Assembly: GCF_032854445.1 (NCBI RefSeq)
Contig: NC_088301.1
Coordinates: forward strand, 22,749,808 to 22,813,807
Reading direction: 5' to 3'
Source: Liolophura sinensis
Taxonomy: Eukaryota; Mollusca; Polyplacophora; Chitonida; Chitonidae
Length of the DNA: 64,000 nt
The notes under the pieces were generated by a model that ran no database searches, had not been told where the DNA came from, and saw only the letters and a list, made by a program, of their open reading frames with translations. Positions 3,801 to 38,000 of this stretch are shown here, in pieces; positions within the stretch are counted from its first letter, which is position 1, and each line of letters begins with the position of its first letter. The translations under genes and the position numbers were made by a program.

Positions 3801-6800
3801 GCTTTGTATACAGAGAGCCCTGTAGTTTTAAAAGGGATATTTGAAATGACACATTACATGCGGGAAGGTACTGGAAAGTCTAGTTTAATCTCCACAGAGA
3901 TTTCTCCCAAATTCCCGTTTATCAAAAAATAATGATAACAAAACAATCAACCTGTTATGAAGTGCATGTTTTAAAATTTTTATGATTAAAATTAAGGAAA
4001 GCATGACTCGGTGAAGTGTGAGCTTGTTCATTACATTCTCGAACTGTCAATATAATCCCCTAATTACCCCTGATGCTCTCCCACGGTGCCCAGTCAGTTA
4101 GAACCACAACCAAAACAATCAATCCTGGGATACACTTTCCGAGTCCCGGGGCGAAACGTTTGGTCATTACCAAAATATGATCAACATGGGTACACGGAGT
4201 GATTTGTCCGTCAGTGCTATAACCCCATTACCGAACTTTATCTTCCCGGCTTTCAGAGCTTTATAGAATTTTTTACATATTTTTTTGTGATAAATGTCAG
4301 GTATCATTTTTCCTATGTGTATATATATAGTGGCAGACTTTATGTTCACTTTTATTCTGTAGGTTGCATGGCATGATGGTTACCCAGAATTTTGTTTTTT
4401 CACAAAAGCAGGTTGACTACAACAGGCAGCGAAATTTGGCGCGAACGAAACCGTCGGTCGCGCAACGGTTACGTGCGGTTCAATTTGGCTAACCGGAAAA
4501 TCGGTTAGGCCAACTGTCCAACGAGAACGTCCTTAGAGTCAGTGTGCATTAGGTAACTACAGATAAACTGGACTGAACAGCTTTCATAATCACAACGCGG
4601 CCAGTATGCGGTCAGCCACAGCCAGCTGCCTGTGCTGGTCACATGGAAATGTAATCATTCATATATGCTTTACAGGCTTTGAGATAATACTCAAATTATT
4701 TATTTTGACTTATCTTTTCACATATAAGCCTGTATAACGGAATTTCACGTAAAAATGTGCCACAGGAGTCAAGTACCAACCAGGCAACACACAACGTTGA
4801 AACACCGTGTGAGTGTAAAATTTCTCTTTCTTTTGTTCACCAACCTTACGGTATGAGCTGCTAGATATAGAAAAGAAAAACAAACATAACATTGAGCTGA
4901 ATACTTTTATTAATGATCCAGAATGATGCCTGAAACATAAACCACGTAAACAATTAGCGTAACCGATCGGGTTGATAAACATACGTGGCGTAACCGAATG
5001 ATCGGTTAGGCGAGGCGGAAAAGACGTAACCGATTTCTGGGTTTCGCCGGCAGGCCAAATTTCGCTGCCTGCTACAAATAAATGTATCTACTCTGGAAGG
5101 TAGCAAGAACAGGAAATCGTGTATAATTTCACAGAAAGAAAGTTGTTTAGTTCATAAAAATTGTGATCGCTATAAATCATACAAAATTTCTTGTGTGCTA
5201 TTTTTTTTTTCTTCATAGCACAGTGAGTGATTCATACACTCTTGTTGTATGGGTTGATGAAAAATTTCCACAACAGTTTACAATGTGATGAGGTAAAATC
5301 GGAAAATATGGCAAAAATTAAAGAAAATCGGGTATAGACACCTAAATAGCTTATTTTCAAATGTAGTTTTCTGACAAAGGTCAAATTTAAAGTTGATTAA
5401 AGCTGTCCTCCTGTACCAAAGTGATCAGTATCAAATTTGGATTTAATATAGTCGGGTAAAGCGTGACAAAAGACTGGTGTCGAAACTTTCAGGTTCCATA
5501 AAATTTCATGAATAACAGGTTGAACGTTGTAATACCTGTAATTTTACATAAGTTCATGAATAACAGGTTGAACATTGTAATACCTGTAATTTGACATAAG
5601 TTCATGAATAACAGGTTGAATATTGTAATACCTGTAATTTGAAATTTGCTTGTTCACTAAGTGTACAGCCAACCCCACACAATCATTTGTCTAGGTTTGT
5701 CTTAAAGTCCAAGATTTTATGTGTCACCGACTTTAAAATGTTCCTGTTGGCGCTAACCATTGCTTTTTGTTGTGCTGTGAGTATTAACCTACGTATATAA
5801 AGCATGACCTGTATGAAATATTGCTGTGAACTAATTTTGGAAGCCATATTGGAACAGCAATCATACTAATATTGCTTGCCCATGTTAATGAAGGGGTTGC
5901 ACCCTTACCCTCACAAAACAATAGCCAATCAGCCATATTGGTGTCCTATTGACATTGACTGGTATGGCTACAGTACTTCAGTATGGCTGCCAGAAGTAGG
6001 TTATGCAACCCCTCTATACAGCTCCAGTATGGCTAACATTATGCAAATCTATGGACAGGTGTTTAATATTGGCATGATGTGTGCACTTACTAAACTTGAT
6101 CGCTGTGAGTTCAAGTCCAGGTTGTGCTGGCTTCCTCTCTGGCCGTAAGTGGGAAAGGCTTGCAGCAACCTGCTGATGGTCTTGGATTTCTTCCGGGCTC
6201 TGCCCGTTTTCCTCCCACCATAATGCTGCCCGCCGTCGTATAAGTGATATATTCTTGAGTAAAGCTTAAAAACACCAATCAAATAAATCAATAAAAAAAA
6301 ACTAAGCTTGAAACTGAGATATATACATATTTTATGTACTTTACATGTATATTAACATGATGAAATACAAATCAAATGGACAGACAGATTCGTGTTGATT
6401 TGTGTACTTTGATATTGTTAACACTAACATGGGAACAATGCAGTATTGCAGTGGTTATATTAGCGACATCAGACTGTTGTGTATATTTGTCAGTTGTGTT
6501 TGTTATAATGTTATTACATGGGGTTTTGGCCAACATATTTATGGTTTATTTGGCATGTTATCTATGTCATAAGTTTCCATTTGTATTTCATATCAGCAGT
6601 GTGCCTTGTCTTAATTGCAAATCTGGGGATACTTACATGTGTACATGTTACACATGAATGTAATAGTGCATATGGTGGAAAGTAAATATTACAAGTAATT
6701 ATGGTAAATGTAATAGGCCTACCATGCTGTACATGTACCTCAGTAAAGATTACAAGTAAATAAGGTAAATGTAATAGGCCTACCGTGCTCTACATGTACC

Positions 6801-15200: not shown

Positions 15201-18200
15201 AAAATGCTGAACACTGCATGTTTTGCATCACGCAACAAAAGACATATGAGTGCTAATTCGCTCTAGCGCGACCTTTTGTGAAAGAAAAATCTGCTGGTAC
15301 CCGATCTGTTGCCTACACCCTATAGTTCCCTCAGAATGTTTGAAAATATTGGTTGTACGGGCAGTTAAAAGTTTATAGAATTAGGATATAGGAACTACCT
15401 ATGTTAATTGAATCTGAGGAAAAGGAAGAAAAATGAGCCCTTTCAGTGTTCTACTGTGAATCTAACAGAATAATTACGCAGTGTAAGTGAAATATTGCTT
15501 TCTAGAGTTGTCTCCCTTGAATGATACTGCTTTACATGGATGCATGGGCTAGCTTTCTGCTTTGTATATGTGAGATTTCTTGTGTCAGGAAAGCGCTAGA
15601 GGATATATTTGAGATCTCAGATCTTGACGGGAATGGCCTGCTGAGCAGGGAGGAGTTTAACCTGTTCAACTTGAGGACAAGCGGGGAGGAGGTGGCTGAT
15701 GATGAATGGAATGTGGTTGAGGGTGAGTTTGGTTAAATTAAGACAGCTTTGTCTGTGTGCTTTCTGAAAAATAAAAAATATTTTTTTACCCTATATGAAT
15801 TCCAGCAAATGTTTCACTTTCAGTATTATGAGTTCTTATACATTGTTGAAAAAGAAACGAATACCTTCTCATCTGTTCTAAACACAAATATACATTGATA
15901 AGGATTGAATAGTGGATTCAGTTGCCGATTTGTCCTGTTCACAGATAATGTGCCCATGAAGAATGGTCAAGTAACGAAGGCAGGCTTTATTCGTCTGAAT
16001 GAGATGGAGGCTGAGGACAATGACGGGGACACGGAGGATTCCTGGATAACGCTTAATAACATGGGTTACAACAAATCCCTTATACTGGACGAGGTGAGTC
16101 ATGTGAAGGGAGACCACTCTTAATGCTAAATGTTCGCAGCTTCTGTAGTGATAACGTTTCCATTTCCTTAACAGACTCAGATATATTTGTTTGATTGGTG
16201 TTGAATGTTTTACTCAAGAATATTTCACTTACATGACGGTGACCAGCATTATGATAGGAAGAAATCAGACAGAGCCCAAGGTATCCCCACGACCATTCGC
16301 AGATTTCTGGTAGACCTTCGCACATACAACAGGAGAGGAATGAATGTATGAATGATTATGGTTTAACGCCACATCGGCAGTATTTCAGCCATATCGTGGC
16401 GAGAGCAAGGTCGAAACAGGAGGCGGTTGTCAACAGGAGAGGAAGCCAGCACACTAAACCCCTGATAGATATGTGTATAAATGCTGGCAGTCTTACGTGG
16501 GTTTAGTCTGTCAGCAATGGATCTGGGTTTCCCCGTAGGGTCATCCCATCATGATGGTGCCCGCCACTATATAAGTGAGATAATCTTGAGTATGGTGTAA
16601 AACACCTATCAAATAAAAAAAAATTAATTTATCTGCCAATTGTGACATTACACAAAATAATTATGTAGCCCTGTTCAGTTCAGTGACAGTTCGATATTAT
16701 ATGCTTTATGCATTCCTGAATACTTTTTGTCTGTCATATTAGGGCTCTTTAAGGATACACAAAGCTTTGTTTTATGTTGTATGTTGTATGCTGACCGTTG
16801 TATGAAGCAGTATTTATAGTGCTGTCAATACTTGTTGTATCATGCCCTAAGAGTCGTATTTCACCTGGTGAAATGTCATATTGAACTTCCCTGCGCACAC
16901 ATGTTGCTTTTGTTCATCTGTGCAGTGATGAATTTTGCATCTCCTCTCAGCTACCTGTTCATCTGTGCAGTGATGAATTTTGCATCTCCTCTCAGCTAAT
17001 TGTTCATCTGTGCAGTGATGAATTTTACATCTCGTCTCAGCTACTTGTTCATCTGTGCAGTGATGCATTTTGCATCTCCTCTGATCTACTTGTAGACTAC
17101 TGCACAACAGGTAGAGATGATGACAGATTTTTTCATCCATGTTTAAAAATTTAGGCCACACTACAATCAATGTGATCAACAGTTATGGTGGAGTAGAGTC
17201 CTCAGTTGGGGGGAAAAATAGAGATGGCATGGACTACTTATGAATATTTACCGAACTGAGGACATTGACCATTACTTGTTTTTTGTTTTTTTCTGTTTTT
17301 TCACCTGCCATTTACATGGACTTGGTAAATATTGTAATTTATTAAAGTTTTTATATTTGCCCCATGAAATGGTCACCAGCTTACTTGAGGCACTTGAAAA
17401 TGCTGGTACCCTAATTCGTCAACCTTTTCGCACGTGAAAGATCAACTTTCAATGAAATTTATGCACATTTGTTATTTCATTTTGGAGGTAAAACTACACG
17501 TACATCAGTTGGATTGGCCAGTTTTGGGCTTCTTAAAAAGTATAATTTTAACAGTCCATAAAGAAGAATCCCTTCAGAATATGCTTAAATATTGCACATT
17601 GCAGACATGCTATATGGTTGAAGAGTTACAGTACTGTATATATAATCTAATAACATGTGCCAATATCTGCATAAAAATAGCGAAATTCAGTGTACATTAC
17701 AGGTACATGATTGTCTGTTTCATGCTTGTTCATTCCGTGTTACCGAATAAAATACATGTGCTTCAGGCTTGTCCATTCCGTATGGATGTTTATGTAGAGG
17801 ACTGCGACCGAGCCCGACTAACTGTACGTGGCCTGGAAGCCGCCAGTATGCGGCTGGAAAATGCTGTCTGCACATCTGTCATTCAGAAGGTAAGCTGAAA
17901 AATGCTGTTTTTGGATCTGTCATTCAGAAGGTAGGCGGGAAAATGCTTTCTATACATCTATTGTTCAGATGGTAAGCTGGAAAAAGCAGTTTGTACATAT
18001 GTCATTCAGAAGGTAAGCAAGAAAAAAGGAGTTTGTACATATGTCATTCAGAAGGTAAGCTTGAAAAGCAGTTTGTACCTCTGTCATGCTGGAGGTATGC
18101 TAGAAAATGCTGTCTTTACCTCTGTCATTCAGAAGGTAAGCTGGAAAAAGCAGTTTGTACATATGTCATTGAGAAGGTAAGCTGGAAAAAGCAGTTTGTA

Positions 18201-21200
18201 CCTCTGTCATTCAGGAGGTAAGCTAGAAAATGCTGTCTGCACATCTGTCATTCAGAAGGTAAGCTGGAAAAAGCAGTTTGTACATCTATTGTTCAGATGG
18301 CAAGCTGGAAAAAGCAGTTTGTACATATGTCATTCGGAAGGTAAGATAGAAAATGCTGTCTGTACCTCTGTCATTCAGAAGGTAAGCTGCAAAAAGCAGT
18401 TTGTACATTTTTCATTCAGAAGGTAAGCTGGAAAATGCTGTCTGTACCTCTGTCATTCAGAAGGTAAGGTGCAAAAAGAAGTTTGTACATTCATCATTCA
18501 GAAGTTTATGGAATCTTAATCTAATGGACCAGAGACTTTTCTTCATTTGAGCTGACGCATATACTTGTAGTTTCAGCATTGTAGCATTTGTTTTTGTAGG
18601 GCGAGTCAACCAAGGTGAAAGGAGTGAAAGACTTGACCATGTACACTTACATAGGAGAAGCCAGAGCCTCTGCTGTGCTGGAGAACAAGGTGTGTGGTTG
18701 AATTGTTCTGGTTACATGCACATAAGAACATGATGGAGCATCTGTCTCATAACTAATAAATCACATGTTCGACCTTGAGTCAAGTCATGTTCGACATTAT
18801 TTTTATTTTTTTTTTTTTGACAACTTTAAGTAGCATTTTCTGACTTGGGTTTCAGAAGTCAGTTGTTCGTAGATCGATTGGACCTTAAGCTAACCCATAG
18901 GGTATATTCCATATAAACCCAGGCCAGTTACTCCCAGCATGGCCAAAAACAAGAAAAAAACTTGACCAGAACTTCCAGAGTAAGTTTTTTCTCTCACAAC
19001 TTGATTACGAAGTATACAACAGATACAAAAAAAGAGACCGGAACCGGGCTGGTTTGGGCTGTGTGAAACTTTTATTTATTTGATTGGTGTTTTACGTCGC
19101 AGTCAATCTCAGTTATACGATGATGGCCAGCATTATGGTGGGAGCAAACCTGGCAGAGCCTGCGGGAAACCCAAGACCATCTGCAGGTTGCTGGCAAACC
19201 TTCCCGACTGCATTGGTGGGCGGCTTCTGGGTCATTGTGCCTGAAACTTTTAAGTCAGTACATGTTGACAATTTGAGCAATTCCAACAAAGCAACTTGAT
19301 TGGTTACATGTGTAAGATCATTTTCTTGCACTTAAGTGCCTTTGACAGCCATAGAGTCAATGTATACCCTTACATTGTGGGGAGAGCTTTGAAACATAAT
19401 ATTCTTTTAGTTCGACTCTGGCCGACAGTAACATAACCGAATAGTTTCTATTCACTTTATCATAATACAAACCTGTTAGGAGGCAAATGAGTGGTTGCAA
19501 GTGCTGCAGTGGAATGGCTGTCTGTTTTTTTTTTTTAGTGGAATTACTATTCCTAATGTCTGCAGTGGGATACAGAAGAAACAAATGTACATAAAGGCAT
19601 AATTTACTAGAAGTCTTGGTTTTGCTGAAATGCCAGCCTTACCTTTGTGCGAGAAAATGAGCTAAACATTTTATTAGTTTTTTATGTATGTAGTTTTTCC
19701 ATATTTCCAGTCCATCTTTATTTATTTAAACTAAGTTACTAGAAGTGATTCAAGACTAGTTCATGATTTATCTGTGTTATTTTTTTTTATAGTTTTATGT
19801 CAACACGTGGAATAATTTTTATAACTTGATGTTTGATTGACAAAATATTTTTCGTGAGGTTGTCATGTCATTCTTCTAAATAATTGACATGAAAGGTTCA
19901 AGAATATATTGAACTGCATTTTTTAGAGAATGAATTAAGTAGTAGGAAAAGTCAGTATTTTTTTCTCAAAGCTCAAAAGTCTCTTTTACCAGATCAGTAT
20001 AAAAGATCATCAGATAAAAATCGGATACATGCAAATCTATCAGTGCCATCTCATACCTGAACATCAAAACTGAGATGTTAATTTCTTGTCAAGATTATTA
20101 AAGATTAAATTCCCTGGGGCCAAACTTCTGAAAAACAACAAATGTTAGAAACAGATTATCATCTCCAGTTTATACTGGAATGTAAAGTTTTGACAGTATC
20201 AAGGAATACAATGGAGAGATCTACCGACCTTACAGAAGATCAATCAAGAGTAACATACATGTTAAGTTTTTGGACAGTATCAAAGTATTTAAATGCAAAA
20301 TGCCTGTACCTGTATCAGCTTATCATTTGTATTAGGATTTTTATAAAGCCAAGTCTGATTTAAGTCAAAATTTACACCTTAAGACCTTGCCAGAATGCTT
20401 AAAATTTGGTATGGGTACTGGAAATTGAAATTTTGACTGTTTTGTGTAAAGATAAAATTCCCAAAAATAAGCTCAAAGTTGTATTTTAAATTTTGCCATA
20501 AGTAAGAAGTGGCTTTCTCGAATAAGCCCCTGCCAAAGGGGTGGTGGTTTACTGTGTACAATCTGCTTTAATACAATCACCATTGATCACTGCATGACTG
20601 TATTCATGTACTTGTCTGTTTCAGTCTTATCGGTGTCTAGAAGTCCAGCTTGACTGCTCCAAGAGTAAGAATGTAGTGAGCAGTAAGGGTAACTTAACCC
20701 ACACGGTGGAACTGCCAAGTCGCAGTATGATGGTAAGATCATGCTATGTTTGCTTTCTGTCGTATTTAACAGTGAAAGTTGTTCAACATGCTAAAATAAT
20801 GATATACTTATTCATACATTTTCTTACGGCACCGCATATATATTTTCAGAGCTTGCACGATGATAATAAAACTATGTTGTAATGTCATTAAATGCTGCAG
20901 TGTCAAGTGTCTGGTATTCCATTTATAGTAACATCGATTAAGTCTTCATTCTCAAGGACATGCCACTAGCTCATCCATAGGAATGATTGTACATGTAGCA
21001 GGCTTCTAGTATGTCTAGTGTTACATAACCAATCCTGTCTACGAGCTCATCTCAGAATACCTCAAACACACAATCCTGCCAACTAGGTCATTTTAAGACA
21101 CCTCCAGCACACAATCCTGTCTACTAGCTCATCTCAATACACCTCAAGCACACAGTTTTGTCTATAGCTCATCTCTAGACACCTTAAGCACACAACCATG

Positions 21201-22154
21201 TCTACTAGCTCATCTCAACCCAACTCAAGCACACAATCCTGTCTATAGCTCATCTCTACACACAATCCAGTCTACTAGCACATCTCAACACACCTCAAGC
21301 ACACAGTCCTGTCTACTAGCTCATCCCAAGAAACCTCAAGCACACAGTCCTGCTATAGCTCATCTCAAACACACAATCCTGCCTACTACATGTAGCTCAT
21401 CTCAACACACCTGAAACACACAGTCCTGTCTACTAGCTCATCCCAAGAAACCTCTAGCACACCGTCCTGTCTACTAGCACATCCCAAGAAACCTCAAGCA
21501 CAAGATCCTGCTATTTCTCGTCTCAACCAATCTCAAGCACACAATCCTGTCTACTACATGTAGCTCATCTCAACACACCTCAAACACACAGTCCTGCCTA
21601 CTAGCTCATCTCAACACACCTCAAACACACAGTCCTGCCTACTAGCTCATCTCAACACACCTCAAACACACAGTCCTGCCTACTAGCTCATCTCAACACA
21701 CCTCAAACACACAGTCCTGCCTACTAGCTCATCTCAACACACCTCAAACACAATTGTTCAAGATTCTGAGTAATGCATTACCAGTCACAAAGCCTTAATT
21801 TTCAATTTCAACCAGTAACGTCAATAGATTACTAGTGCCACAAGCACACTACTAAATTAACATCTAGCAGGCTTGTAACATTTCATGGCCATTCATCTAG
21901 CCTTTAGTTTCTGTGTCACTTATTCACATGCAGAAGGCTCCTAGCATTCCATTACCAGTCACATTGCCCTCTTCTGTGGATATGATGACCAGTCACCGCG
22001 AAAATTTGCATTCATTCCACAGTCAAACCTGGATTGTTCCAACTGTTTTGTTAACGTTTTTGTCTTTGGCATTTCCCAGGTTGCTCAGCACCTTATCCCA
22101 GATGATGAAAGCGCTGAGTGGTCCGTCAAATTTGGGGATCCAACTTTAAAATAG
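728..22154 (+). CDS. EFCAB7: EFCAB7 orthologue, 3' portion (13 exons)
   Basis: Joined exons: 728-860, 2033-2122, 3506-3589, 7922-8028, 9044-9179, 10787-10896, 13848-14005, 15589-15722, 15945-16093, 17767-17889, 18600-18689, 20625-20732, 22080-22154. All have AG acceptors and GT donors, the phases match throughout, and the product is 498 residues ending at TAG. The order of motifs matches vertebrate EFCAB7 as I remember it: a Lys-rich linker, a proline/serine linker, the DW...KGCFFLEDD...SHQY block, the VDTALYIL block, the TTGCRLR block, a canonical EF-hand loop (DLDGNGLLSREE, residues about 284-295), the LRTSGE and NMGYNK motifs, and ACPF near residue 368. Human EFCAB7 is about 629 aa, so roughly 150 N-terminal residues with the first EF-hands lie upstream. 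In vertebrates EFCAB7 with IQCE anchors EVC-EVC2 at the base of the primary cilium for Hedgehog signalling; conservation of that role here is inferred. Family assignment is firm; exact exon ends are predicted by eye. Confidence 0.93.
1646..1727. repeat. 41-bp tandem duplication
   Basis: Two adjacent copies (1646-1686, 1687-1727) starting GTCTTAAATTTC and ending GGTGTTTACAAAGA, differing at a few bases. Confidence 0.9.
2033..2122 (+). CDS. EFCAB7: EFCAB7 exon 2 in window
   Basis: Acceptor CATCAG ends at 2032 and donor GTAAG begins at 2123. It encodes a Ser/Pro/Arg-rich linker (SSSHPEPSPRDRRTSS...). The linker is poorly conserved, so the call rests on splice signals and frame continuity with its neighbours. 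Confidence 0.8.
2707..2845 (+). mobile_element. SINE fragment, same family
   Basis: It has CTTCCTCTCTGGCC, GCGGATGGTC, CTCCCACCATAATGCT, TTCTTGAGTACAGCG and ACACCAATGAAATAA in family order. No clear flanking duplication. It lies in an EFCAB7 intron. Confidence 0.8.
3506..3589 (+). CDS. EFCAB7: EFCAB7 exon 3 in window
   Basis: Acceptor AACAG ends at 3505 and donor GTACAT begins at 3590. It encodes NDTELPVPAPRSSLTQ..., the counterpart of the PVPKPSP linker in vertebrate EFCAB7. The phase fits both neighbours. Confidence 0.83.
4423..5071. mobile_element. 649-bp MITE with 18-bp TIRs and 6-bp TSD
   Basis: The left end CAGGCAGCGAAATTTGGC (4423-4440) has its exact reverse complement at 5054-5071. 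The 6-bp direct repeat CTACAA flanks it at 4417-4422 and 5072-5077. Subterminal CGGTTAGGC and CGTAACCGA motifs recur in both orientations, as in transposase-bound ends. No transposase frame is present. A 6-bp duplication excludes typical hAT (8), piggyBac (TTAA) and mariner (TA); the superfamily is undetermined. It lies in an EFCAB7 intron. Confidence 0.85.
5505..5641. repeat. 48-bp tandem repeat, about 2.8 copies
   Basis: Copies start at 5505, 5553 and 5601 with TTCATGAATAACAGGTTGAA and TAATACCTGTAATTT. Confidence 0.93.
6100..6300 (+). mobile_element. SINE, 5'-truncated, with TSD
   Basis: The body starts at the tRNA B-box region (GTGAGTTCAAGTCC) and ends in an A-rich tail. Flanking direct repeats ACTAAACTTGA (6089-6099) and ACTAAGCTTGA (6301-6311) differ at one base. 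Confidence 0.85.
6684..7081. repeat. About 62-bp minisatellite, 6-7 copies
   Basis: The unit contains GGTAAATGTAATAGGCCTAC and GCTGTACATGTACATCAGTA. One copy near 6913 has a deletion. It lies in an EFCAB7 intron. Confidence 0.92.
7539..7758. mobile_element. 220-bp MITE-like inverted-repeat element
   Basis: ACCCTAAATGACCTGAAATTTC (7539-7560) is matched, with one mismatch, by the reverse complement of 7737-7758. The interior has no coding potential. Element edges and target duplication are unclear. Confidence 0.65.
7763..7790. repeat. 28-bp perfect palindrome
   Basis: The two 14-bp halves (TATAAACTGACTAT and its exact reverse complement) are contiguous with no loop. It sits 4 bp after the inverted-repeat element ending at 7758. 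Confidence 0.9.
7922..8028 (+). CDS. EFCAB7: EFCAB7 exon 4 in window
   Basis: Acceptor TTTCAG ends at 7921 and donor GTACAT begins at 8029. It encodes a basic linker ending in LSEPRNLK, which runs directly into the DW motif of the next exon. It ends on a codon boundary. Confidence 0.87.
8060..8522 (+). mobile_element. Second SINE type with internal 84-bp duplication
   Basis: A tRNA-like head with B box (GCGGGTTCAAATCCAGCC) is followed by an 84-bp period repeated nearly exactly (from 8212 and 8296: GGTACCTGACA, CAAGGATCCTTCAG). A CACTTTGTCAAAGGTTGGTGG-like middle follows, and the main-family 3' tail (TTCTTGAGTATGG ... CAATCAAATAAATA). The head differs from the main family but the tail is shared. 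Confidence 0.7.
9044..9179 (+). CDS. EFCAB7: EFCAB7 exon 5 in window
   Basis: Acceptor TTTCAG ends at 9043 and donor GTGCGT begins at 9180. It encodes DWMHMFRKGCFFLEDD followed by SHQYMLHLP, a strongly conserved block that opens the central beta-rich domain. A (TA)n tract lies 19 bp into the following intron. Confidence 0.93.
9199..9232. repeat. (TA)n microsatellite
   Basis: An uninterrupted TA run 19 bp after an EFCAB7 exon donor. Confidence 0.95.
9301..9452. repeat. 38-bp tandem repeat, 4 copies
   Basis: Copies start at 9301, 9339, 9377 and 9415 with GCGTTCTTACGATAGT and end in AATTGGCT. Confidence 0.94.
10316..10462 (+). mobile_element. Old diverged SINE copy
   Basis: Recognisable only by the order of degraded family motifs (TTCTTCCACCAATAAG, CCTCTTGAGCACAGTGCAAAACACC). 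It lies in an EFCAB7 intron. Confidence 0.5.
10787..10896 (+). CDS. EFCAB7: EFCAB7 exon 6 in window
   Basis: Acceptor CTACAG ends at 10786. The donor GTTAGT at 10897 is slightly non-consensus. It encodes DLSDDDTPVDTALYILRD and then LVTFTEQ, matching the conserved VDTALYIL / CFTE strands. It ends on a codon boundary. Confidence 0.92.
11974..12324 (+). other. Unrecognised 116-codon frame inside the hAT-like element
   Basis: The frame codes a hydrophilic, Ser/Thr/Glu-rich polypeptide with a Cys-containing start (MSSQHCCEALALYFGGSC after an upstream Met). I recognise no domain. Codon composition is more balanced than in surrounding introns, so it may be a captured host exon or remnant of the element's own gene. 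It may also be chance. Confidence 0.25.
12550..13078. repeat. 51-bp minisatellite in hAT-like element
   Basis: About 10-11 copies of a 51-bp unit containing AAGTGAAGCTGCCATTACAA and CGTAACATCCACTGGCTGAT. Two copies carry internal deletions. Confidence 0.92.
13848..14005 (+). CDS. EFCAB7: EFCAB7 exon 7 in window
   Basis: Acceptor TCCACAG ends at 13847 and donor GTAAGT begins at 14006. It encodes GSYILCPMTTGCRLR and an acidic/basic loop ending VVLSKTFK. It lies just downstream of the hAT-like insertion in the preceding intron. Its 3' end and donor recur in diverged form in the following intron (see findings). Confidence 0.93.
14006..14380 (+). repeat. Degenerate repeat of exon 7 donor region
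   Basis: After the true donor (CTTCAAGTAAGTAC at 14006), similar donor-bearing stretches recur near 14157 (GCCAAGTAAATG), 14226 (TTGAAGTAAGTAG), 14301 (CTTAAGTAAGTAGG) and 14373 (GCAAGTATATG), mostly 70-76 bp apart and preceded by CTGTCC/CTGTCT-like sequence. Confidence 0.5.
14416..14564 (+). mobile_element. SINE fragment with internal deletion
   Basis: The family body runs from TTTCCTCTCAGTTCG to AACACTAATCAAATAAATAAA. The segment between ACAATGCTGG and the tail is shortened. Confidence 0.8.
15589..15722 (+). CDS. EFCAB7: EFCAB7 exon 8 in window (EF-hand)
   Basis: Acceptor TGTCAG ends at 15588 and donor GTGAG begins at 15723. It encodes the third EF-hand of the family. The 12-residue loop DLDGNGLLSREE has all the expected ligands (D1, D3, N5, Glu12) and the invariant Gly6, so calcium binding is likely. 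The LRTSGE motif follows. Confidence 0.94.
15945..16093 (+). CDS. EFCAB7: EFCAB7 exon 9 in window
   Basis: Acceptor TTCACAG ends at 15944 and donor GTGAGT begins at 16094. It encodes KAGFIRLNEMEAEDNDGD and then SWITLNNMGYNKSL, both typical of EFCAB7 (second helix pair after the EF-hand loop). It ends on a codon boundary. Confidence 0.93.
16184..16330 (-). mobile_element. SINE fragment, minus strand
   Basis: The reverse complement of the family: GATTGGTGTTG, ACTCAAGAATATTTCACTTA, GACCAGCATTATG and CCACGACCATTCGCAG appear in order. Confidence 0.8.
16345..16475 (-). mobile_element. Fragment of a different SINE family
   Basis: It contains GGTTTAACGCCACATCGGCA, TATTTCAGCCATATCGTGGC and a degraded AGGAAGCC segment. 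This tail differs from the main family and is common in mollusc SINEs (from memory). It sits between two main-family fragments. Confidence 0.5.
16488..16624 (+). mobile_element. SINE fragment, plus strand
   Basis: TCAGCAATGGATCTGGGTTT, CATCATGATGGTGCCCGCCA, AATCTTGAGTATGGTGTAAA and an ACCTATCAAATAAAA tail. With the minus copy at 16184 it forms an inverted SINE pair in one intron. Confidence 0.75.
16911..17090. repeat. 45-bp tandem repeat, 4 copies
   Basis: Copies start at 16911, 16956, 17001 and 17046 with TGTTCATCTGTGCAGTGATG. On the minus strand they form an open frame of 15-residue repeats (CKIHHCTDEQ-type). Confidence 0.93.
17767..17889 (+). CDS. EFCAB7: EFCAB7 exon 10 in window
   Basis: Acceptor CTTCAG ends at 17766 and donor GTAAGC begins at 17890. 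It encodes ACPFRMDVYVEDCD through LENAVCTSVIQK. The last 33 bases and the first 8 intron bases are copy 1 of the 41-bp array that fills the start of the next intron. Reading through the donor meets TGA at 17896-17898, so use of any downstream donor would truncate the protein. Confidence 0.93.
17854..18510 (+). repeat. 41-bp minisatellite made of exon end plus splice donor
   Basis: Sixteen units of 41 bp (plus or minus 1). Unit 1 (17854-17894) is the last 36 exonic bases of EFCAB7 exon 10 and the donor GTAAG. Each unit keeps the CTGGAAAAnGC ... GTCATTCAGAAG core. Twelve units keep GTAAG, two have GTAGG or GTATG, one has GCAAG, and the last has lost the donor. Two sub-types (AATGCTGTCT and AAAGCAGTTT) partly alternate. 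Confidence 0.95.
18600..18689 (+). CDS. EFCAB7: EFCAB7 exon 11 in window
   Basis: Acceptor TTTTTGTAG ends at 18599 and donor GTGTGT begins at 18690. It encodes VKDLTMYTYIGEARASAVLENK, matching the VHTY...VIENK segment of vertebrate EFCAB7. The acceptor lies about 90 bp after the donor-repeat array ends. Confidence 0.92.
19075..19241 (-). mobile_element. SINE, minus strand, with TSD
   Basis: The reverse-complement body runs from the tail (TATTTGATTGGTG) to a tRNA-like head (TTCTGGGTCATTGTGC). An 11-bp direct repeat TGAAACTTTTA flanks it at 19064-19074 and 19242-19252. Confidence 0.88.
20625..20732 (+). CDS. EFCAB7: EFCAB7 exon 12 in window
   Basis: Acceptor TTTCAG ends at 20624 and donor GTAAGA begins at 20733. 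It encodes the penultimate conserved beta segment (VQLDCSKSKNVVSSKGNL ... VELPSRSMM). The phase is 0 at both ends. Confidence 0.9.
21040..21755. repeat. 41-bp minisatellite in last EFCAB7 intron
   Basis: The unit contains CCTCAAACACACAGTCCTGC and CTACTAGCTCATCTCAACAC. The right-hand copies from 21578 are nearly identical; left-hand copies are diverged and variable in length. Confidence 0.93.
22080..22154 (+). CDS. EFCAB7: EFCAB7 terminal coding exon
   Basis: Acceptor TTTCCCAG ends at 22079. It encodes VAQHLIPDDESAEWSVKFGD, ends PTLK, then TAG. The H-x-x-P...EW pattern matches the C-terminus of vertebrate EFCAB7, although the last residues differ. Confidence 0.9.
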   Translation, partial: VAQHLIPDDESAEWSVKFGDPTLK

Positions 22155-24339: not shown

Positions 24340-25205
24340 TACTGCATTGGTATTAGCCTATAAATACTGTATTGGTATCAACCTACATTTACATATACAA
24401 TACCGTATTGATATCAGTCAAATACTGTATTGCTATCAACCCATGTATTGTATTGCTATCAGCCTAAATACTGTTTTGCTGTCAGCCTAAATACTCTATT
24501 GCTATCAGCCCAAATGCCATTTTGCTATCGAGCTAAATACTGTATTGATATTTGCACAAATTTTGTTTTGCTATCAGCCTAAAATACTGTTTGCTACAAC
24601 ACCGTATTGATATCAGTCTAAGACTGTATTACTATCAGCCCATGTACTGTATTGCTAACAACCTAAATACTGTATTGCTATCCGCCCAAACTCTGTTTTG
24701 CTGTCAGCCTAAATACTGTATTGCTGTCAGCCTAAACACTGTATTGCTACCAGCCTAAATACTGTATTGCTATCCGCCCAAATTCTGTTTTGCTGTCAGC
24801 CTAAATACTGTATTGCTGTCAGCCTAAACACTGTATTGCTACCAGCCTAAATACTGTATTGCTACCATCCCAAATACTGTTTTGCTATCAACCTAAATAC
24901 TGTATTGCTATCAGCCTAAATACTGTTTTGTTATCTGCCTAAATACTGTTTTGCTATCAGTCTAAATACTGATTTGCTTTCCGCCTAAAAACTGTTTTGC
25001 TGTCAGACTAAATACTGTTTTGCTATCAGCATAAATACGATTTTGCTATCAGGCTAAATACTGTTTTTCTGTCAGTTTAAATACTGTTTTGCTTTCCGCC
25101 TAAAAACTGTTTTGCTATCAGCCTAAATATGATCTTGCTATCAGCCTGAGTGCGGTTTTGCTATCCGCCTGAGTGCGGTTTTGCTATCAGCCTAAATACT
25201 GGGTT
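24340..25205. repeat. 22-23-bp minisatellite, roughly 35-40 copies
   Basis: The unit is CCTAAATACTGTATTGCTAT plus CAG with frequent substitutions. A higher-order block near 24680-24850 is duplicated. It generates short reading frames that are not genes. Confidence 0.93.
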
Positions 25206-35050: not shown

Positions 35051-38000
35051 GTGAGTTAATTAAATTACAGGTGAAAATTTTACCAGTCGAGTGCAGGTGT
35101 ACTTAGCATGTGAAATGTGGCAAAATTTAACTGAGTGCTGTAGGCTAGGACTTTTAGATGAAGTCGCAAGAAGTGGAGTTACGAGGTTTTTTTTATTTGT
35201 ACATGTAACATATGACAAGTATATGGTGTATTAATGCAATACTTTTTGGCATAGGCCGCTGTCTATCTGGTTTGACCTTAATATTATACACCAAGACACT
35301 CTTCTACCGAGCAATCGTTGTCCAAGTTGTTTGAAAGTGTTTGAGGGTTTTGTCGTACTTAGCAAATTTTCAATCATATGACCACGAGGAGTCATTAGGT
35401 GTGTGTACATATTTAATGTGTCCTCTTGTAGCAGGGCGAGCCCATGCCGCCAAAAATTTGCCGACATTCAAGTAAGACACCCAACTCCGTCACATTATAT
35501 TAACACCGGGCCAACCAGTCCTGTTTCCTTGCTCTAATATCTCAGTGTTAAGCGCCAAGCGAGGCAGCAACGAGTACCATTTTTAAAGTCCTTGGCCTGA
35601 CCCGATCCGAGTTTGATCCCTTGACTCTCGACTACTGGGGTTGCGACCGTTGTTTTCGTAGCATATAGCAAAAATATGGTTGTATTAATGCTGATATTAG
35701 GGTAACAAGGGCAATAGCCTATACAAGACAACGTTTTCCAGTCTTCTAATCCTGTATATCTGGCTTGGCTTCAGTGTTATACATCAGTTCCACAAACCGA
35801 CTGTAGACCGAGTTGATTGTAACTACCATTACAGTGTATGTCTTTGACATCTCCACATGTAGGCCGAGTCATTGTAGTTCCAGTTAACTTGGCCTATCTT
35901 AAATCGCATTGTGGAACGAGGTCTGGAACATTCTACGTCATCACTCGCTGACGTTTTGCCACAAATATTGCCACGTTTCCCAAACGCCGTGTCGTTGCTC
36001 CTGTAAAACACAAATTTCTGATCTGTCTGATCTGATGTCTAACACTGAAACACGTGTGTTTTTTAGTGCATAGGCACTGGAATATAGACCTCGACGATGT
36101 GTTTATTATAGCGTGCAAGAAACTGTGATACTTGAAAAACCTGCCCATGCATAGGTTATTTTGGTTAATTGTTTCTACATTTTTATTTTTCCACCATTTT
36201 GGATCACATTTAACACACACAAACACACTCTTTTTTCTGTAGCAAAAAAAACATGGCAATCCTACATATTTTAAACTTCTTCATAACGAAACAGTATACA
36301 TGCGTGTGCTTGTTGTTCTTAATGTGACGACCCTGTTTTGTTTACAAGCTGTTTGATGGTGAGTTCATTGTGTTTGCAGTGTGATATGTACACAAGGTTC
36401 AGATCTATATCTCCACGCTAATCAATAGTCAGCTTATCTGCCCATAATGTTTGCAGTGGTATTTGAAATAAAACATTGTAACCAGACATCTTTGGCCTAT
36501 ATATGATAATATTGATCATTCTGTTCATTGTTACAAGTGAATCAGAATGTATTGGTCGCTTCTGATCATTGTTGAAGGTGAAAGCATTTGTTACTTCTGA
36601 TCATTAGCTGTTATAACATGAATACATTTAAAAGGGATTTTGAATGAATAAATCTGACGATATATTCTTGAAAAAGTTGAAGAATTTAAAAGTAAAATCT
36701 AGTCAAACCGTTGTGCATACGGCTTGCAATGGTCAAGTCTTCTTAAACCTTTAATTTGGCTTGCCTATTTGAAATAAAACAGTGTACCAAACATCTTTGG
36801 CCTGTGTTTGATGATATTAATTACTTATCTTGGTCATTGTTAAAAGTGAATCAGAATGTATTGGTCACTTTCAGTTACTGTTAAAAGTGATTGCATTGGT
36901 CAGTTCTAGTCACTGTTAAAAGTCAATACATTGGTCACTTCCAGTCACTGATGAAAGTTAATCAGAATGCATTGGTCACTTCCAGTCACTGTTAATAGTG
37001 ATTGCATTGGTCAATTCTAGTCACTGTTAAAAGGGATTACATTGGTCACTTCTAGTCACTGTTAAAGGTGAATACATTGGTCACCTCCAGTCACTGTTGA
37101 AAGTGAATCAGAATGCATTGGTCAATTCTAGTCACTGTTAAAAGGGATTACATTGGTCACTTCTAGTCACTGTTAAAGGTGATTACATAGGTCACTTCCA
37201 GTCACTGTTAATAGTGATTGCATTGGTCAATTCTAGTCACTGTTGAAAGTGAATCAGAATACATTGGTCAATTCCAGTCACTGTTGAAAGTGAATCAGAA
37301 TGCATTGGTCAATTCTAGTCACTGTTAAAAGGGATTACACTGGTCACTTCTAGTCACTGTTAAAGGTGATTACATTGGTCACTTCCAGTCACTATTGAAA
37401 GTGAATCAGAATGCAATGGTCACTTCTGGTCACCGCTAAAAGTTAATGCACTGTTCACCCCTAGTCACTAGCTGGTATAACTTGAATGCATTGAAAAGTG
37501 ACATCGTGAATTTGACGATATATTCTTCAGAAAGTTGCAGAATTTAAAACTAAAATCGAGACATACCATTCCTAAACCCGTGATCTCTGTAATGAAATCG
37601 CATGACGTGCTGTACCTGTATATATATTTACGTGGTACGAACTGGTTGCCAGCATATAGAGGTCACATTCACACGTTGCTTAGGGTATCATGTTAACACT
37701 GGAATGTGATCGGCACAAAGACTATGGATTTTCTCGTCCCCACAGTATCACTGACACTGACAACCCCAATTGGGATGATCGTTCTGTCCCAATTTCAACA
37801 AAAGTTACAGATATATTAAAACTACAACACACTGTACACGTCCGACGCGGGTTTTACGTTTTGTTACAAAATTTTTTGCTATCACAAGCTTAAACATTGT
37901 TGTTAAGTTAACGACGCGCGGTTTTTTTTTTAAAGACTGTTGTGAGCCAGACATCGCGTATTATGTTACAATAACCCAACAGTGCATAAAGTAAGATAAG

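Follow-up and report, generated by a model that had tools for sequence, protein, structure and literature searches.

The window, the whole stretch of 64,000 nucleotides of chiton DNA analysed here, holds a coding exon that runs into a minisatellite in which the end of the exon is repeated together with its splice donor. The question is which of these donors is used and whether their number matters to the gene. The original prediction held that copy number might tune the output of the gene and named a neutral array as the alternative; that alternative fits our results better. With a probability of roughly 0.78, we read the array as a neutral mirage in which the first donor is used and the later ones are decoys.

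Structure of the host gene and the array

The gene model consists of six exons on the forward strand. The first (15589-15722) encodes an EF-hand and ends in phase 1, and the second (15945-16093) encodes an EF-hand-associated domain and ends in phase 0. The third exon (17767-17889; 123 nt, 41 codons) ends as unit 1 of the repeat. It is followed by an exon at 18600-18689 (phase 0), which is in frame with the first donor, by another at 20625-20732 (phase 0), and by a candidate last exon with a stop codon at 21945-22154, whose acceptor was picked by inspection. All six exons are preceded by AG, and all but the last are followed by GT. Joined through the first donor, they give an open frame of 270 residues and a final stop. 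Pfam finds matches to EF-hand and EF_assoc_2 domains, both weak and under the Pfam cut-offs, and the best solved-structure match over this part is a mitochondrial Rho GTPase, obtained with a query that contained a partly wrong exon join. The putative name EFCAB7, with the exon at the array as its exon 10, comes from the original prediction. Searches of the 64-kb window for tRNAs and Rfam families gave no match.

TRF places 15.9 copies of a 41-bp unit at 17853-18504. Cutting at the donor yields 16 units spanning 17849-18504, all of 41 bp except unit 5 (42 bp) and unit 6 (40 bp). The two procedures confirm the prediction of a 41-bp unit that begins inside the coding exon and of sixteen units extending into the intron. 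Unit 1 (17849-17889) is the exonic copy, with a first few bases that are not repeat-like; units 2-16 (17890-18504) are intronic tandem copies of the donor and the exon-like end. The predicted extent of 17854-18510 describes a real array, but its last six bases lie outside the repeat, which ends at 18504. A further 95 bp separate the end of the array from the acceptor.

The array bears two marks of a mirage: it crosses an exon-intron boundary, and its units carry splice signals that pair with U1. As predicted, 12 intact GTAAG sites and several variants stand in a row. GTAAG follows 12 of the 16 units and is replaced by GTAGG after unit 2, GTATG after unit 6, GCAAG after unit 11 and TTTAT after unit 16. 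The 12 sites fall within 662 bases, while the forward strand of the whole window has 67, and the array holds 11 of the window's 14 copies of AGGTAAG; these counts exclude chance. An exon-like core had been claimed for all downstream units, but GTCATTCAGAAG is exact in just 7 of the 15 later units.

Among the later copies, unit 10 (18218-18258), nine units away, comes closest to the exon tail and matches it at 36 of 37 nt. Unit 1 is 97% identical to unit 10 and 83% identical to the adjoining unit 2. Since unit 2 resembles the exon tail less than unit 10 does, an exchange of copies within the array is probable. Two main unit types, with TGCTGTC and AGCAGTT, occur in mixed order, and a variant 3' half is common to units 3 and 11. 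Pairwise identity between units ranges from 60 to 97% (columns 6-42).

Donor strength and reading frame

The first donor, GTAAGC at 17890-17895, alone among the donors of the array preserves the frame of the gene model and is presumably the one used. Reading past it meets an in-frame TGA at 17896-17898, just as predicted. The later units end in GT in 13 of 15 cases, in GC once (unit 11) and in neither once (unit 16), and the last intact donor, GTAAGG, follows unit 15 at 18464-18469. In the gene model, splicing at any of the 14 later GT or GC sites brings in the TGA and stops translation at codon 138, which bears out the prediction that later donors would truncate the protein.

Strength does not single out the first donor. 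Its computed pairing energy with U1 is -9.5 kcal/mol, and ten later donors (units 4, 5, 7-10 and 12-15) reach the same value or lower. The weaker ones are those of unit 2 (-9.2), unit 3 (-8.0), unit 6 (-5.8) and unit 11 (-3.3 kcal/mol). Elsewhere in the surrounding 10 kb, 3 of 599 GTs attain -9.5 kcal/mol. The prediction that U1 could bind at many sites is therefore well founded by calculation, with 10 of the 15 later units equalling or surpassing the first in pairing, and some mis-splicing is to be expected.

One rival reading is a splicing rheostat. Later donors would compete for U1, the TGA and decay would follow, and copy number would set the amount of protein. The proposal draws support from the 10 of 14 later GT or GC sites that equal or better the first donor and from the early stop to which all 14 lead. 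Against it stand the record of sequence change, the occurrence of the same architecture in unrelated genes, and the situation in amphioxus, where RT-PCR suggests regular splicing despite the mirage repeats, according to excerpts of PMC3087553.

Similar arrays elsewhere in the genome

The whole genome was surveyed with two patterns. Three AGGTRAG at minisatellite spacing match 7343 times (3549 + 3794) vs 2985 times (1818 + 1167) for the backward control, and the stricter pattern of three AAGGTAAG matches 546 times (298 + 248) vs 380 (257 + 123); both excesses count matches rather than arrays, and large arrays weigh heavily in them. The first 100 matches listed for the first pattern form eight clusters on C1, and the 100 listed for the second form 28 loci, including two nearly identical copies (L051 and L052). 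The upstream stretch of each cluster and locus was examined.

Among the matches listed for the first pattern, one of the eight clusters (L026) starts in a coding exon. This exon encodes ankyrin repeats, and espin can be aligned to it up to the last codon before the first donor; the top match by E-value is another ankyrin protein that ends three residues earlier. The next exon of this espin-like gene lies 4.6 kb on, in frame with the first donor, and the intron continues for about 4 kb beyond the array.

Three arrays on C1 were noted in passing. L030 (C1:825000-834900) has a 31-bp unit repeated at about 4877-5327 in an espin-like ankyrin gene; it is the second clear exon-end array, and the next exon is in frame with its first donor. 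L028 (C1:1329114-1329328) has about five copies of a 52-bp unit ending in CTCCCCTTTTATAG directly before GTAAG, a unit end that resembles a joined acceptor and donor. In the 49-bp array of L024 (C1:505640 onwards), many units contain CACCACAG, 12 nt and then GTAAGC, and resemble a repeated micro-exon.

With the stricter pattern, 5 of the 28 loci from the matches listed show a protein match in the exon before the first donor. The hosts are MTH1-like (L033), GGA/adaptin-ear-like (L035), glutamate-carboxypeptidase-like (L042), LEDGF-like (L049) and GT18-like (L058) genes. The exon of the GGA-like gene matches the GGA ear, the GT18-like match reaches residue 38 of 40, and the match of L042 is weak (E 0.04). 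In all six further exon-end arrays, the espin-like one included, homology reaches the first donor or stops within two codons of it. The stretch of exon that recurs in a later unit measures 6 nt in the MTH1-like array and 16-47 nt in the remaining five. The MTH1-like array starts practically at the donor and barely enters the exon; the next exon of this gene was not found in the piece examined, which holds another repeat.

Six loci (L038, L039, L047, L048, L054 and L057) look coding and have unproved exon ends. PDB searches gave no match for L038, L039 and L054 (E up to 1) or for L048 (E up to 0.01), and Pfam gave none for L038, L039, L042, L047, L048 and L054. Inspection of the remaining 17 of the 28 loci revealed no good exon end; TRF finds no array at L034.

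Sequence change in the donor columns

On the decoy reading, the later donors leave with the intron and change as freely as the other parts of the unit. In the present array, 9 of 135 positions are changed in the nine donor columns vs 61 of 480 elsewhere (permutation P 0.10; 0.13 by another count). Of 41 windows, the one with the GTAAG columns ranks among the three with the fewest changes (P 0.105 for random columns, 0.13 for a nine-base window). This low level of change is a hint of upkeep and is not significant.

Seven arrays were then pooled: the present one, the espin-, MTH1- and GGA-like arrays, and L047, L048 and L057 with their unproved exon ends. Several of these are shortened by the stretch that was fetched, and five of the seven entered the set through having three or more intact AAGGTAAG, a bias towards kept donors. 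Within this small sample, partly chosen for intact donors, there is no sign of selection on the later donors, since the donor columns (54 of 769 changed) behave much like the other positions (219 of 2841). The direction is mixed, with donor columns changed less in four arrays and more in three; the clearest excess of donor change is found in the MTH1-like array (19 of 239 vs 34 of 988). Neither keeping nor purging of decoy donors is clear over the seven arrays.

Selection on codons within the units was considered and dropped. Third positions of the exon frame lead with 31 changes vs 15 and 16 (permutation P 0.054), but two of the leading columns change almost together, so the excess was not built on. 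The RNA of exon and intron folds better than 20 of 20 shuffled sequences (z -2.06), which perhaps reflects only its repetitiveness.

With donor columns that are not significantly kept, and with similar arrays in unrelated genes, tuning of the gene by copy number is unsupported, and we consider the rheostat improbable.

Origin of the array

To give the neutral mirage, a stretch reaching from the end of the coding exon into the start of the intron would have been duplicated in tandem, and the array would then have expanded through slippage or unequal exchange. Of the donors, the spliceosome would take the first, which adjoins the exon.

A course about as improbable as the rheostat is that a piece of exon with AGGT was duplicated in tandem and so created the intron itself, the array being the relic of this event. 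Most units do end in AAG/GTAAG, and a gain of introns from mirage repeats has been proposed for amphioxus globins in the excerpted parts of PMC3087553. However, the intron extends 95 bp past the array to its acceptor, and about 4 kb in the espin-like case.

The units might, very doubtfully, act as tiny exons or as stepping-stone splice sites, given that most of them also hold TTCAG before AAG/GTAAG and that splicing in AAG by itself would insert a single in-frame lysine.

An artefact of assembly is the least credible explanation: a 1-kb query around the array has one match in the genome (one assembly), a single copy that would suit it, whereas the units differ by 3 to 40%, which is not expected from repeated reading of one unit, and HiFi reads with a mean of 8,347 bp, as given in the excerpts of PMC11068029, far exceed the 0.65 kb of the array.

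Frequency of exon-end arrays

The window and the neighbouring 200 kb (264 kb together) contain 53 minisatellites according to our own filter; in three of them a donor motif is part of the consensus or occurs two or more times. Other large minisatellites in the window lie at 21033-21752, 24399-25201 and 36843-37469; the first of them starts about 300 bp past an exon, with no contact between the two. The stretches 19070-19240 and 16190-16340 look like one interspersed element (TTGATTGGTGTT...), which we take to resemble a molluscan SINE.

The seven exon-end arrays from a shallow survey, the present one and the six further ones, suggest that such arrays are frequent in this chiton. Scaling up 53 minisatellites per 264 kb, with an assumed number of introns per gene, gives a rough estimate of hundreds or more exon-end arrays. 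Random placement alone could account for that many, and so no hotspot is claimed. A bolder view, that minisatellites arise preferentially at exon ends here and that some 100 genes carry donor ladders whose first donor is reliably chosen and whose length sometimes leaks into expression, strikes us as unlikely.

Comparison with known systems

Canestro in 2002 reportedly dealt with amphioxus Adh3, and Turri in 1995 is said to have described a minisatellite with several splice donors in the human 6-16/IFI6 gene. Tandem repeats across exon-intron boundaries are known as mirages in amphioxus, in Adh3 and in globin genes, where their length differs between haplotypes (excerpts of PMC3087553); similar repeats occur in PGBD5 (PMC3902484, in part). 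The chiton array shares with them the boundary-spanning tandem repeat and the repeated splice signals, and differs in that the host is a mollusc. Dimensions also vary. The chiton array counts 16 units, each about 41 bp long, and lies at a donor. In amphioxus, the repeat of BflGb6 is on the acceptor side and consists of 3 or 6 units of 150-160 bp, the 3' boundary of an exon in BflGb9 has a duplicate of 157 bp, and the units of Adh3 measure 10-72 bp.

In 6-16/IFI6 the donor is likewise repeated at an exon end, and two downstream units serve as donors, giving three mRNAs (PMC4526556, as excerpted). Usable in-frame products from later donors are not expected here, since 14 of 14 later sites lead to a stop at the same codon in the gene model. 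Intron gain by tandem duplication, reportedly treated in PMC4974935 and discussed in PMC3087553 (in part), offers a further likeness, a duplicated segment with AG/GT.

No mollusc report of an exon-boundary array was found among the matches listed from the open-licence literature. The nearest is an abalone gene with an intron minisatellite, which the excerpts of PMC6905558 do not describe as lying at an exon boundary. The array is thus a known kind of repeat that recurs in this genome, in a lineage for which no earlier report appeared among those matches. The amphioxus papers, to judge from their excerpts, describe mirages gene by gene. Exon-end arrays provide a natural test of how one donor is selected among many near-identical ones by the spliceosome, and they are a possible source of new introns.
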